Below are positions 5,955-9,110 of a stretch of DNA of 64,000 nt, one piece after another. Source of the stretch: Bacteroidota bacterium (GTDB lineage Bacteria; Bacteroidota; Bacteroidia; Bacteroidales; JAGONC01). The stretch spans positions 1-64,000 of the forward strand of contig JAPLDP010000085.1 of the NCBI GenBank assembly GCA_026391695.1. The letters run 5' to 3'. The position numbers and the translations under genes were made by a program. Numbering within the stretch: position 1 is the first letter of the stretch; each line of letters opens with the position of its first letter. A model generated the notes under the pieces. The model saw only the letters and a list, made by a program, of their open reading frames with translations, made no database searches and was not told where the DNA came from.

Positions 5955-6051
5955 AATTCCGTTTTTAATGACTTCATTCCTTTTCAATAGTATTCAATGT
6001 TCCGGCTGCAAATGCATCGCGGATTGTTGCCTGTGCGGGTGGGCAAATTGC

Positions 6052-6116
6052 TATTAAATATGAAGTATGAAGCACTAAGTATTTAATATTTAGTACTTCA
6101 TACTTCATGCTTAATA
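6052..6116. repeat. long A/T-rich palindrome
   Basis: Two 32-base arms, 6052-6083 and 6085-6116, match as reverse complements at 28 of 32 positions with a single-base loop. The arms contain ATGAAGTATGAAG; similar TTCATTCTTCATGCTTCA text occurs at 9820-9838 before the tRNA. This looks like a dispersed intergenic palindrome of the kind common in Bacteroidota. The rest of 5955-6350 shows no gene. Confidence 0.6.
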
Positions 6117-6359
6117 GTCAGAATAAATCCGGGTTGGCATTTATGCGTTCGTATATTCCCCCGAATGGCAAATATAGTGAAAGTAATGTCCTTTTGGCTA
6201 TTCCGTGAGCAACTTAATATCTGTCGCTGTGCATAGTTAAAAATAGTTGTTAACATGGGATAGTTTTGTCCAGACGTGAAAGACGCAGTTTTGTAAAGTA
6301 TTGATATTCTCGCTATTAAAAAACAGGGAATTAAATTAGGTTTTCAGAAAACGATCCAA

Positions 6360-6399
6360 TACATTTGCGTTGAAAATGGCATTAAAAAAAATAGTTTTC
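6360..6399 (+). promoter_or_regulatory. minus-7 element plus shared leader motif (copy 2)
   Basis: TACATTTG at 6360-6367 fits TAnnTTTG; no good minus-33 TTG is seen. The 21-base motif at 6379-6399 matches 2658-2678 at 20 positions and starts 11 bases after the minus-7 element. A second TATATTTG lies at 6426-6433, so the transcription start is uncertain. Confidence 0.4.
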
Positions 6400-6501
6400 A
6401 GAGATGCCCATATCAGATAAAAATATATATTTGTTCTCAACGATTATTCACATCTAAATGGACGACGGACCGGCGCGATATCATTTAATTACCCTGGTAT
6501 A

Positions 6502-6560
6502 GAAGGATGACATCCCCGCTGATGTGCTTCCTTCATATTACCATTGCAGAAAGGAGGCAC
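6502..6560 (+). promoter_or_regulatory. candidate RNA switch sequestering a Shine-Dalgarno
   Basis: GTGCTTCCTT (6524-6533) can pair over all 10 bases, with one G-U, with AAGGAGGCAC (6551-6560), which contains the strong Shine-Dalgarno of the gene starting at 6563. The loop is 17 bases. An alternative upstream hairpin competes for the same bases: GAAGG (6502-6506) with CCTTC (6530-6534), and CATC (6511-6514) with GATG (6521-6524). The two cannot form together, which is the logic of a translational expression platform. The upstream sensor domain, if any (6380-6500), matches no aptamer I know. Confidence 0.5.
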
Positions 6561-6562
6561 AT

Positions 6563-7837
6563 ATGTCTATTCTCAAAACATTTTACCTGAGTCAGGTTAT
6601 AGGTAAGAAAGTTAATGACGCAAGTGACCATTACATTGGTAAAGTCACCGATTTTCTGGTTGACCTGGTCCCCTTGCTTTCCGATACGTTCTCGGCAAGA
6701 GCCAAAGTGACCGGAATAAGGATTAAAACACATGAAGGCAAGAAAAGCTATTCCATATCAGGCTTCAGCATACAGAAAGTAAAAAAGCATCTGGAGGTCA
6801 CTTGCCTAACCTTAATTGATCTTCCCAGGGAGATCGAAAATGAAGGAATTTTTCTTTGCGACTCTGTGCTGGACAAACAGATTGTTGATATAAACGGTCA
6901 TAAAGTTGTACGTGTCAACAACATACGGTTGGTCACAATAGCGACAGGAATTTACGCCATAGCTGTCGATATTGGAATGGAAGGATTATTGCGGCGTATC
7001 GGCATTGATAAATTAATGCAGAATTTTACCTCATTCTTCAGGTTGACCATCCCTTCAAAATTCATTCTCTGGGATGACGTTGAAGCCATCGATTACCGCA
7101 ACCTGAATATCAAGCTGTCGAAGTCATCATCGAAACTTAATACCCTTCACCCCTCCGATCTGGCAGATATTATAGAAGAGCTTGACAAGGCATCGAGCAA
7201 GATTGTATTCGAATCACTTGATGAGGAAAAAGCCGCCGATGTTCTTGAAGAACTCGAACCGCATGCCCAGGTCGATATGATTGAAAGCCTCCCCGTCGAC
7301 AAAGCAGCCGACGTTCTTGAGAAAATGCCGGCAGATGAAGCAGCAGATATCATCGAGGTCCTTGAGACTGACAAAGCCGAAAGCCTTCTGACCGAAATGG
7401 AACACGAAGCATCGCAGGAAGTCAGGGAACTGTTGAAATACCACGATAAGTCAGTTGGAAGTATCATGTCAACCGAATTTCTTGCCTTCCATAAATACGA
7501 CTCAGTTTCAGAAGTTCTTGCTGAACTTCGTATACAAAAACCTGAGGAGGCAACATTATACACTTTATTCGTGACAGGGCTGAATAATGAACTCATAGCT
7601 ACTTTCACACTGCGTGACCTGGTCATTACCGAGCCGGATCAAAAGGTGGAATCCATCATGCATCTTAACCCGGTAGTTCTTAATGATGAGGATGACATTG
7701 ATGAAATCGCCGAAGTGGTTTCCAAATACAACATGCTTGCTGTTCCTGTAACTGATCATAGAAAGAAATTACAGGGAATGGTGGTGGTTGACGATATCGT
7801 TGAAGATCTGATCAAGAAAGGCAGAACAAAACGTTAA
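6563..7837 (+). CDS. PRC-barrel / MgtE N-terminal / CBS-pair cytosolic regulator of a metal transporter
   Basis: A 424-residue soluble protein starting at the ATG at 6563, chosen because AAAGGAGG precedes it; the frame stays open back to a GTG at 6524 inside the hairpin. Residues about 1-75 look like a PRC-barrel-type domain (SQVIGKKVNDASDHYIGKV), and a second related segment follows (residues 95-175). Then comes an MgtE N-terminal superhelix with its short acidic repeats (EEKAADVLEEL, VDKAADVLEKM, ADEAADIIEVL) and a CBS pair (SIMSTEFLAF to GMVVVDDIVEDLI). In MgtE these parts sense cytosolic Mg2+ and gate the pore; here no pore follows in the same chain. The Nramp gene 13 bp downstream probably supplies it, so this is likely its sensor subunit. 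That pairing is inference from layout. Confidence 0.85.
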   Translation: MSILKTFYLSQVIGKKVNDASDHYIGKVTDFLVDLVPLLSDTFSARAKVTGIRIKTHEGKKSYSISGFSIQKVKKHLEVTCLTLIDLPREIENEGIFLCDSVLDKQIVDINGHKVVRVNNIRLVTIATGIYAIAVDIGMEGLLRRIGIDKLMQNFTSFFRLTIPSKFILWDDVEAIDYRNLNIKLSKSSSKLNTLHPSDLADIIEELDKASSKIVFESLDEEKAADVLEELEPHAQVDMIESLPVDKAADVLEKMPADEAADIIEVLETDKAESLLTEMEHEASQEVRELLKYHDKSVGSIMSTEFLAFHKYDSVSEVLAELRIQKPEEATLYTLFVTGLNNELIATFTLRDLVITEPDQKVESIMHLNPVVLNDEDDIDEIAEVVSKYNMLAVPVTDHRKKLQGMVVVDDIVEDLIKKGRTKR

Positions 7838-7850
7838 GACACACTTTACT

Positions 7851-9110
7851 ATGATGGCGGTATTTTCAAGAAGAAACAGATCTCTTGTCAAGAGGATTGT
7901 TTTATTTCTGACAATACTCGGGCCTGGCATTATAACCGGAAGTGTCGACAATGATGCCGGAGGTATTACAACCTATTCGGTTGCAGGAGCTGTTTATGGG
8001 TATAACCTGATCTGGACCTTAATCCCTTCATTCATAGTGCTCATCGTCATACAGGAGATGAATGCCCGTATGGGTATTGTCACCGGAAAAGGATTAGCTG
8101 ATTTAATCAGAGAAAATGCCGGGGTGAAAGTGACGTTCTTCATCTTTATCGGGCTGCTTCTCGCGGATATCGGCAATACCACAACTGAATTTGCCGGTGT
8201 TGCAGGAAGCATGAATGTCTTTGGGGTGAGTAAATACATCTCCGTACCTGTCGTTGGATTTATAGTATGGATACTGGTCGTCAAAGGAACGTACAAAATT
8301 GCGGAACGGATATTTCTGGTGTTAAGTGCAGCATTACTCATGTATATTGTTTCCGCTATTATGGGAAAACCCCATTGGGGGGAGATAGGGATGTCAATCA
8401 TTAAACCACAAATGGAATTTAGTACCGAATCCATCGCTTTGATCATCGGGATCATAGGGACTACCATAGCTCCATGGATGCAGTTCTATATGCAATCGGC
8501 TGTGATTGAGAAGAACCTGAAAATGAAACATTACAAATATACCCTCCTGGATGTGATAGTCGGTTGCACGGCCACTGTTGTTGTTGCATTCTTCATTATT
8601 GTGGCATGCGCTTCAACGCTCCATGAAAACAATATCACCATTCTGGAAGCAAAAGATGCAGCCATGGCTTTAAAGCCATTGGCAGGTAATCTGGCTTCAA
8701 TCCTTTTTGCTTTTGGGCTTTTTATCGCCTCTATTTTTTCAGCTACAATCCTGCCTTTGGCGACAGCATTTTATGTATGCGAGGCATTTGGATTTGAAGC
8801 AGGGATTAATAAAAAATGGGAGGAAGCACGCGAGTTTTATACGCTTTACACGGCAATAATTGTGCTGGGCATGATCATCATCCTGCTACCAAATGCGCCC
8901 CTGATAAAAATCACTTTGTGGTCGCAGGTGATTAACGGCATTCTTCTGCCAGTTGTGCTGATTTGTATGATCTTGTTGGTAAATAATCCGAAGATCATGG
9001 GTAAACATGTAAACAGACCGATTAACAACATCATCGGATGGAGTGCTGTGGCCATACTGATCTTACTTTCGGTTACATTGATCCTGATGCCTTTTCTGCA
9101 AAATTTATAA
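7851..9110 (+). CDS. Nramp-family divalent metal transporter with atypical site
   Basis: A 419-residue integral membrane protein with about 11 hydrophobic segments and the GPG..TG start of the Nramp fold. Aligning helix 1 on the conserved G-P, the canonical D-P-G-N reads D-A-G-G (Asp35 kept, Asn replaced by Gly38). In helix 6 the canonical M-P-H reads A207-P208-W209, so the metal-binding Met is replaced by Ala. The Met is known to favour soft transition metals, and its loss is reported for the Mg2+-transporting NRMT branch. Together with the MgtE-N/CBS partner encoded 13 bp upstream this suggests Mg2+ or another hard cation, but Mn2+/Fe2+ transport is not excluded. Inner-membrane location, one operon with the upstream gene. 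Confidence 0.85.
   Translation: MMAVFSRRNRSLVKRIVLFLTILGPGIITGSVDNDAGGITTYSVAGAVYGYNLIWTLIPSFIVLIVIQEMNARMGIVTGKGLADLIRENAGVKVTFFIFIGLLLADIGNTTTEFAGVAGSMNVFGVSKYISVPVVGFIVWILVVKGTYKIAERIFLVLSAALLMYIVSAIMGKPHWGEIGMSIIKPQMEFSTESIALIIGIIGTTIAPWMQFYMQSAVIEKNLKMKHYKYTLLDVIVGCTATVVVAFFIIVACASTLHENNITILEAKDAAMALKPLAGNLASILFAFGLFIASIFSATILPLATAFYVCEAFGFEAGINKKWEEAREFYTLYTAIIVLGMIIILLPNAPLIKITLWSQVINGILLPVVLICMILLVNNPKIMGKHVNRPINNIIGWSAVAILILLSVTLILMPFLQNL

Follow-up and report, generated by a model that had tools for sequence, protein, structure and literature searches.

A conserved leader ORF and mutually exclusive helices point to a leader-peptide attenuator, probably reporting low Mg2+, in front of an MgtE_N-CBS/NRMT-type Nramp operon of Bacteroidota

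The concept of intrinsic ribosome destabilisation reportedly goes back to Chadani 2017. In Escherichia coli, ribosomes translating the leader peptide MgtL drop off at an early EPDP motif when Mg2+ is low, and a single acidic pair reportedly does not destabilise the ribosome in every case (both from PMC11282234). In Salmonella, acidic codons 2 and 5 of MgtQ lower translation of the leader and raise that of mgtB via alternative stem-loops, and loss of the mgtQ start codon lowers the amount of transporter, as described in PMC8092293. Ribosomes of Bacteroidia, according to PMC9976891, ignore the Shine-Dalgarno sequence, their 16S tail being held by bS21, bS18 and bS6, and the Shine-Dalgarno sequence of rpsU is exceptionally strong, below -13 kcal/mol.

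Here, we explored a leader in front of a predicted metal transport operon within a stretch of 64,000 nucleotides from a Bacteroidota bacterium (hereafter, the window). Its features are as follows.

6426-6433, plus strand: promoter-like -7 box TATATTTG, by sequence match to TAnnTTTG
6458-6502, plus strand: leader ORF of 14 codons, MDDGPARYHLITLV, of the M-D-[D/E]-x-P type, with the stop TAG at 6500-6502; putative peptide
6495-6514 with 6521-6543, plus strand: helix A, the proposed ON state (fold of the window; swap, covariation, geometry)
6522-6533 with 6551-6562, plus strand: helix B, the proposed OFF state (fold, swap, covariation)
6550-6557, plus strand: Shine-Dalgarno sequence AAAGGAGG, pairing at -16.3 kcal/mol to an assumed 16S tail
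6563-7837, plus strand: first gene, 424 aa, with a PRC-like start, MgtE_N and CBS (Pfam)
7851-9110, plus strand: second gene, an NRMT-type Nramp of 419 aa (Pfam)

Pfam agrees with the initial annotation that this is an MgtE_N/CBS plus Nramp operon, the PRC match of the first gene (20.2 bits) lying slightly under the cut-off of 21.2. No Pfam match to the membrane part of MgtE was found in the protein encoded by 6563-7837; a PRC-like/MgtE_N/CBS protein devoid of this part adjoins an Nramp pore and might regulate this transporter in response to Mg2+. The NRMT clade includes a proven Mg2+ transporter. In PMC8806188, the signature of this Mg2+-transporting clade is given as DxxG plus TxxA/T, with tryptophan in place of the helix 6b histidine. 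The Nramp protein encoded by 7851-9110 contains DAGG and TTIAPW and thus possesses the binding-site motifs of the NRMTs. Compared with solved structures, it matches 7qia, which we take to be the NRMT of E. lenta, with an E value of 9e-107, the next sequence following at 2e-29. Judged by its sequence, the window Nramp has the solved NRMT as its nearest relative of known structure, and we class it as an NRMT-type Nramp, a candidate Mg2+ transporter.

A single-protein query against the contigs of relatives yielded no match, and an alignment query was then used, from which the best 80 of 389 relatives were taken. There were 118 loci with a match to the N-terminal domain, or 114 after removal of 4 duplicates, comprising 100 close loci (E 1.4e-54 or better) and 14 distant ones (L122-L135, E 1.6e-23 or weaker). 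An Nramp gene lies downstream of the first gene in 89 of the 100 close relatives, with DAGG in 89/89 and TxxAPW in 86/89, the remaining 3 being incomplete sequences. Among the 11 close loci lacking the Nramp gene, the sequence available downstream extends over no more than 355 nt in 5 and over more than 1.4 kb in 6 (L011, L047, L070, L094, L102, L110); L011, L047, L094 and L102 have kept the leader and the first gene, with no Nramp within 1.4-2.3 kb downstream.

The upstream regions of the relatives contain a short ORF beginning ATGGACGA; its counterpart in the window was absent from the initial annotation, as was the promoter-like box. Of the 100 close relatives (drawn from the best 80 of 389), 92 have an M-D-[D/E]-x-P leader ORF in this position; the filter behind this count required position 5 to be proline and allowed few residues at positions 1-3. 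A looser filter for M[D/E] alone recovers the same ORFs, except for the altered starts of L083 (MGEDP) and L103 (ATA for ATG). A homologous leader is that of Bacteroides luti DSM 26991 (L040). Position 2 is D in 91/92 leaders and position 3 is D or E in 87/92. Among the same 92 leaders, codon 2 is GAC in 85, GAT in 6 and GGC in 1; codon 3 is GAC in 47, GAA in 30, GAT in 10 and other codons in 5; and codon 5, for Pro5, is CCT in 50, CCG in 37, CCC in 4 and CCA in 1. Codon 6 is GCG in 72/92, lacking synonymous variation of the kind seen at codons 3 and 5. In the non-redundant set of 47 leaders, left after those with at least 80% aligned identity were dropped, base entropy is 0, 0 and 1.08 bits across codon 5, and 0.30, 0.40 and 1.47 bits across codon 3. 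The first residues of the leader are, as read from these codons, conserved while synonymous positions vary, which is conservation at the peptide level. Conservation across the columns of the 92 leaders is seen at the beginning of the leader ORF, at the start codon of the gene and in the Shine-Dalgarno sequence together with the strand pairing to it; a conserved aptamer core, the mark of a riboswitch, was not found among these columns.

The leader ORF of the window starts 32 nt downstream of the TATATTTG box, whose consensus, TAnnTTTG, we take to be the Bacteroidota-type -7 box, and 73 of the 92 leaders have such a box no more than 70 nt upstream of the ORF, the commonest distance being 34 nt. 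The window has a second TAnnTTTG match at 6360-6367; a distal promoter there is possible but was set aside, the box of the relatives lying about 34 nt before the leader.

The exceptions among the close loci are diverse. In the leaderless loci L008, L033 and L110, the TAnnTTTG box lies instead 28, 50 and 11 nt before the gene, respectively, and the Shine-Dalgarno sequence is also gone in L008 and L110, but kept in L033. In L070, the leader start is kept, the hairpins and the Shine-Dalgarno sequence are absent and the gene begins directly after, a remnant that reflects either natural loss or an assembly fault. Only 16 nt of upstream sequence are available in L081, the upstream region of L113 is unrelated-looking and G+C-rich, and L120 and L121 are more distant loci. 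None of the 14 distant loci L122-L135 has an M-D-[D/E]-x-P leader; in L124, an upstream ORF starts with MDDLL. The distant relatives L125-L135 have a conserved hydrophobic ORF of 31-34 codons, for example MSRGVKFSLAVLRIYLFLLVVLMIYKFITVIKVV, about 110-120 nt before the gene.

The initial annotation placed the Shine-Dalgarno sequence within a 10-bp hairpin, and this hairpin (6524-6533/6551-6560, including one G-U pair) is present as the core of helix B, which two further A-U pairs extend to 6522-6533/6551-6562, up to the last base before the start codon of the first gene; the segment 6522-6533 is the anti-Shine-Dalgarno. The alternative hairpin proposed on shared bases (6502-6506/6530-6534 plus 6511-6514/6521-6524) was likewise recovered, as the core of a longer helix A, which captures the anti-Shine-Dalgarno and whose 5' arm overlaps the leader stop codon. 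The duplex energies of the two helices are nearly equal, -19.5 (A) and -19.0 kcal/mol (B). The fold of 6515-6565, at -16.1 kcal/mol, has a z score of -3.22, with 1/200 shuffles as good; the z scores are -2.16 (3/200 shuffles) for 6455-6570 and -1.43 (19/200) for 6490-6570. The whole leader, 6360-6600, is not unusually stable (z -1.16, 26/200 shuffles), nor is the fold of 6360-6460 unusual (z -0.49). That the upstream part resembles no known aptamer, as annotated, is borne out by Rfam 15: no family reaches the gathering score in the leader and none appears up to E = 1 on 6330-6620. Elsewhere in the window, Rfam identifies a DUF805 RNA (RF03081, 80.9 bits) at 2154-2221 on the minus strand, and an inverted repeat with 33-nt arms, 88% complementary and 1 nt apart, lies at 6051-6117.

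The two helices fare well in comparisons among relatives, where helix sequences differ while the pairing stays. When pairing partners were swapped among the 47 leaders, helix A scored -17.9 with its own partner vs -12.6 with swapped ones, the own partner being in the best 5% in 22/47, and helix B scored -16.4 vs -12.6 (14/47); for the control, an unpredicted pair of the same segments, the values were -6.5 and -7.0 (2/47). In the 92-row alignment with fixed structures, 71.3% of the cells are paired for helix A vs 65.1 in shuffles, and 76.5% vs 73.9 for helix B. Covariation is 0.308 vs 0.226 shuffled for helix A and 0.220 vs 0.186 for helix B, and in neither case did any of 500 shuffles reach the observed value; versions of the structures slid along the alignment gave at most 0.164 (A) and 0.123 (B), a comparison in which the fixed structures, coming from one member, are favoured. 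In this 92-row test, related rows can beat shuffles even without structure. Pairs changed on both sides show no excess, the observed number being reached by 437/500 shuffles for helix A and 84/500 for helix B. RNAalifold, run on the alignment of the 92 leaders, predicted no helix, only two pairs inside the leader start; a likely cause is the combination of two exclusive structures with indels, but the result still counts against the switch. Partner swapping and the fixed-structure counts were adopted after this null result. The initial annotation had staked its switch on conservation or covariation of the hairpins in homologous leaders, and on the swap and covariation counts the switch survives.

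The position of helix A was also compared with that of the leader codons. With the first 21 nt barred from pairing, the predicted 5' arm of helix A begins 20 to 35 nt downstream of the Pro5 codon in 92/92 leaders, and 24 to 26 nt downstream of it in 58, whereas its start relative to the stop codon ranges between 28 nt upstream and 7 nt downstream. The ribosome edge was taken to lie at stop+12 when the A site holds the stop codon, and at +15 when Pro5 occupies the P site. On these assumptions, 4 nt or more of the arm would be covered by a ribosome at the leader stop in 92/92 leaders, and the arm would be left free by one at Pro5, again in 92/92. Both hold in all 47 non-redundant leaders vs 44% of 940 shuffles, which separately show the stop overlap in 84% and the free arm in 55%; the folding energy is -17.7 vs -10.9 in shuffles, and the spread of arm starts is 2.7 vs 12.6 nt. 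An equilibrium model gives weaker support than the geometry: the mean predicted probability of an open Shine-Dalgarno sequence in the 47 leaders is 0.14 for free RNA, 0.26 with a ribosome at Pro5 and 0.13 with one at the stop, the sequence being more open at Pro5 than at the stop by more than 0.2 in 15/47 and the reverse in 2/47. For the window leader, the corresponding probabilities are 0.03, 0.44 and 0.03.

Leaders of the same type precede other genes. A covariance model of the 92 NRMT-operon leaders (R1) yielded 16 matches in 15 of 149 relatives and 8 matches in 8 of 395 genomes of the class, including, outside the NRMT operon, leaders of CorA (L147, L157), MgtE (L148, L149) and OprB porin (L151) genes, four of the five assigned with Pfam and L149 by reading the sequence; the match L158 was judged to be due to chance. 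The leader MDEGPATRLLTVSMER (L151 and L234, in G068:C2) is followed by the gene of an OprB-family protein of 460 aa, which may be a porin through which Mg2+ enters; the helices of this leader do not clearly outperform shuffles. Further upstream regions, those of 45 MgtE and 110 CorA genes, were then read. Strict motif ORFs occur in 10/155 of these in sense (8 CorA, 2 MgtE) vs 0/155 in antisense, and looser ones in 22 vs 4. Altogether, by judgement after reading that was not blind, a leader precedes 6 of 64 MgtE genes (L148, L149, L214, L217, L226, L229; the 64 being 17 and 45 from two upstream surveys plus 2 from the R1 matches) and 13 of 111 CorA genes of the relatives (L147, L290, L298, L313, L320, L321, L323, L325, L328, L337, L343, L356, L358), those of L356 and L358 having no proline. 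The majority of the CorA and MgtE genes inspected lack a leader of this type, among them the two CorA genes of the window's own genome (L246, L274), and the strict motif is absent from the first 17 MgtE upstream regions.

The hairpins of the CorA and MgtE leaders differ in sequence from those of the NRMT operon. Among 24 candidates, 21 leaders were scored, and both helices were matched by no more than 5/100 shuffles in 12 of these, but not in L151, L157, L284, L290, L302, L325, L331, L335 and L338; the unscored L214, L217 and L229 contain, by eye, CTGTAAGG / CCTTACAG / TGTAAGGAG or near forms. A second model, built from 13 CorA and MgtE leaders only and run on 117 relatives (R2), gave 23 matches: 9 training leaders, 4 more CorA upstream regions (L325, L331, L356, L358), 6 NRMT leaders, the OprB leader and 3 judged to be chance (L359, L365, L367). 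It missed, at E 0.05, the window's own leader, and also missed that of G016. Thus, the NRMT and the CorA/MgtE leader groups find each other. The genes behind the accepted leaders are those of Mg2+ transporters, the porin excepted; the choice of models and genes is biased to the surroundings of Mg2+ genes, except that the R1 and R2 searches covered whole genomes. Candidates left uncounted include, for CorA, the poorly fitting L302, L331, L338 and L268, although R2 matched L331 (E 0.003), and the partial L284 and L335; for MgtE, the loose matches L212 and L219, as well as L015, L017 and L023, flagged by a loose rule among the first 17 regions and judged to be non-leaders. A pattern search of 247 genomes was too loose, with 27 places, two of which (G000, G287) were judged true from the matched letters only.

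Taken together, these comparisons of sequences give good support to the anatomy of a translational attenuator with a leader peptide, and we consider it probable that the window leader is such an attenuator, most likely reporting low Mg2+. The mRNA would start shortly upstream of the 14-codon ORF (MDDGP...). A ribosome translating it fully would stop at 6500-6502, cover the 5' arm of helix A and prevent this helix from forming; the anti-Shine-Dalgarno, 6522-6533, left free, would then pair with the emerging Shine-Dalgarno sequence in helix B, and the operon would be OFF. If the analogy with MgtL and MgtQ applies, the ribosome would drop off or pause on the acidic start (Asp2, Asp3, Pro5) when Mg2+ is low; upon this early loss or pause, helix A would form and capture the anti-Shine-Dalgarno, turning the MgtE_N-CBS/NRMT operon ON. 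The sensor, accordingly phrased, is most likely the ribosome translating the leader peptide. We infer translation of the leader, Mg2+ as the signal and drop-off rather than stalling, the reading of Mg2+ through drop-off coming from the analogy and the target genes. In favour of the attenuator, the leader losses in L008 and L110 came with loss of the Shine-Dalgarno sequence, as seen in their upstream regions. Counting against it are the RNAalifold null, the 15/47 of the equilibrium model, acidic pairs that do not always destabilise the ribosome, the leaderless majority of CorA and MgtE genes, the window leader missed by R2, the proline-less L356 and L358, and the porin target.

The anatomy alone names no signal, and the same hairpin logic could answer another trigger, namely, nascent-peptide stalling, general translation stress or a small molecule. 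Antibiotic-sensing attenuators of this kind are known, including that of Bacteroides tetQ (PMC5418344), and other uORFs of Bacteroidota encode arrest peptides before secretion genes (PMC10987492). We nonetheless regard another trigger as unlikely, given that the target genes are those of Mg2+ transporters of three unrelated families and one porin and that the acidic start resembles MgtL and MgtQ. The translational riboswitch of the initial annotation stands in its mutually exclusive, translation-controlling helices, with pairing kept in homologues, but not in its RNA aptamer, for which there is neither a conserved core nor an Rfam match. A metal ion bound by the RNA and exchanging the helices would fit alternative helices in front of a metal transporter, and Mg2+ stabilises RNA generally; yet the helix sequences vary freely and nothing is conserved as an RNA core beyond a reading frame with synonymous variation. 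The aptamer reading was dropped because it is the M-D-[D/E]-x-P frame that is conserved in 92/100, and because leaders of this type, occurring also upstream of CorA and MgtE genes, have hairpins of different sequence there. Thus, the window leader is very probably not an aptamer riboswitch, and we hold a metal-binding one to be improbable.

The Shine-Dalgarno sequence itself, annotated as strong, proved to be exceptionally so, although its pairing energies are based on an assumed 16S tail, as a search of the window's own genome did not recover the 3' end of the 16S rRNA. Besides the window, 74 of the 92 leaders pair at or below -13 kcal/mol with this tail, the range given for rpsU in PMC9976891, which would be expected if bS21-lacking ribosomes read the operon, as in the case of Flavobacterium rpsU, and the leader only tuned the outcome. 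That the strong Shine-Dalgarno sequence is the main switch appears very improbable to us: it leaves the conserved leader ORF, its spacing and helix A unexplained, helix B itself requires a purine-rich strand at this place, and L298 and other leaders have weak forms. The strength of the window Shine-Dalgarno sequence may serve initiation, or helix B alone. Finally, a functionless hairpin and ORF that arose by chance would agree with the unexceptional stability of the whole leader and with the RNAalifold null, but is hardly credible in the face of a leader in 92/100 relatives and of the swap, covariation, antisense and geometry controls.

More tentatively, and with somewhat more doubt than conviction, we propose that, beyond the low-Mg2+ attenuator of the window, Bacteroidota possess a ribosome-based Mg2+ sensor of their own, with MD[D/E] leaders that originated independently of MgtL and MgtQ and that control NRMT-Nramp, MgtE, CorA and perhaps a porin by hiding the Shine-Dalgarno sequence. 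Given that this sequence is hidden and freed in a phylum that normally ignores it, Shine-Dalgarno use may be a device kept for such switches. A literature search, with subscription papers and most preprints outside its coverage, found no report of such leaders in Bacteroidota. If the proposal is true, enterobacteria are not alone in sensing Mg2+ via the instability of ribosomes on an acidic nascent chain: such sensing arose at least 2 times, with one design serving three transporter folds in Bacteroidota. Whether ribosome stability is a widespread gauge of Mg2+ would then become testable with natural sequence variation, strong Shine-Dalgarno sequences would have a role in a phylum where they are scarcely used, and Mg2+ control in Bacteroidota of the gut and the environment would become more accessible.

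How, then, does this leader compare with described systems? Like MgtL and MgtQ, it has a short ORF before the gene of a (predicted) Mg2+ transporter, early codons for acidic residues, frequently accompanied by proline, and alternative structures set by the extent of leader translation, the latter seen in the structures and the geometry, though in 15/47 leaders at equilibrium and not at all with RNAalifold. Metal riboswitches, such as M-box and yybP-ykoY, are also leaders of metal transporters with alternative structures, but the window leader has no Rfam match and conserves a reading frame rather than an RNA core. The attenuators of ermC and Bacteroides tetQ share the leader peptide, the exclusive helices and the hidden ribosome-binding site but respond to antibiotics, with no acidic MD[D/E] start described in the available text of PMC5418344. 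In the leaders mgtL (mgtA of E. coli and Salmonella; PMC11282234) and corL (corA; PMC11552253), as in the proposed mechanism, full translation of a 5' leader turns a Mg2+ transporter OFF, and corL precedes corA just as some Bacteroidota leaders precede CorA genes; their output, however, is Rho-dependent transcription termination, whereas the window leader would hide the Shine-Dalgarno sequence. The likeness to MgtQ as described in PMC8092293 is as follows: in both cases, a very short ORF with early acidic codons precedes a Mg2+ transporter gene, and translation is controlled through alternative stem-loops, one of which hides the ribosome-binding site. There are also differences, in that mgtQ is intergenic within the mgtB leader, whereas the leader ORF of the window would lie at the mRNA start; MgtQ has 8 codons, with Asp2 and Glu5, and its proline acts through base pairing only; and its target is a P-type transporter in another phylum, with no recognisable sequence relation to the window leader. 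Loss of the mgtQ start codon results in less transporter, and the free RNA of the window is likewise predicted to be OFF (0.03).
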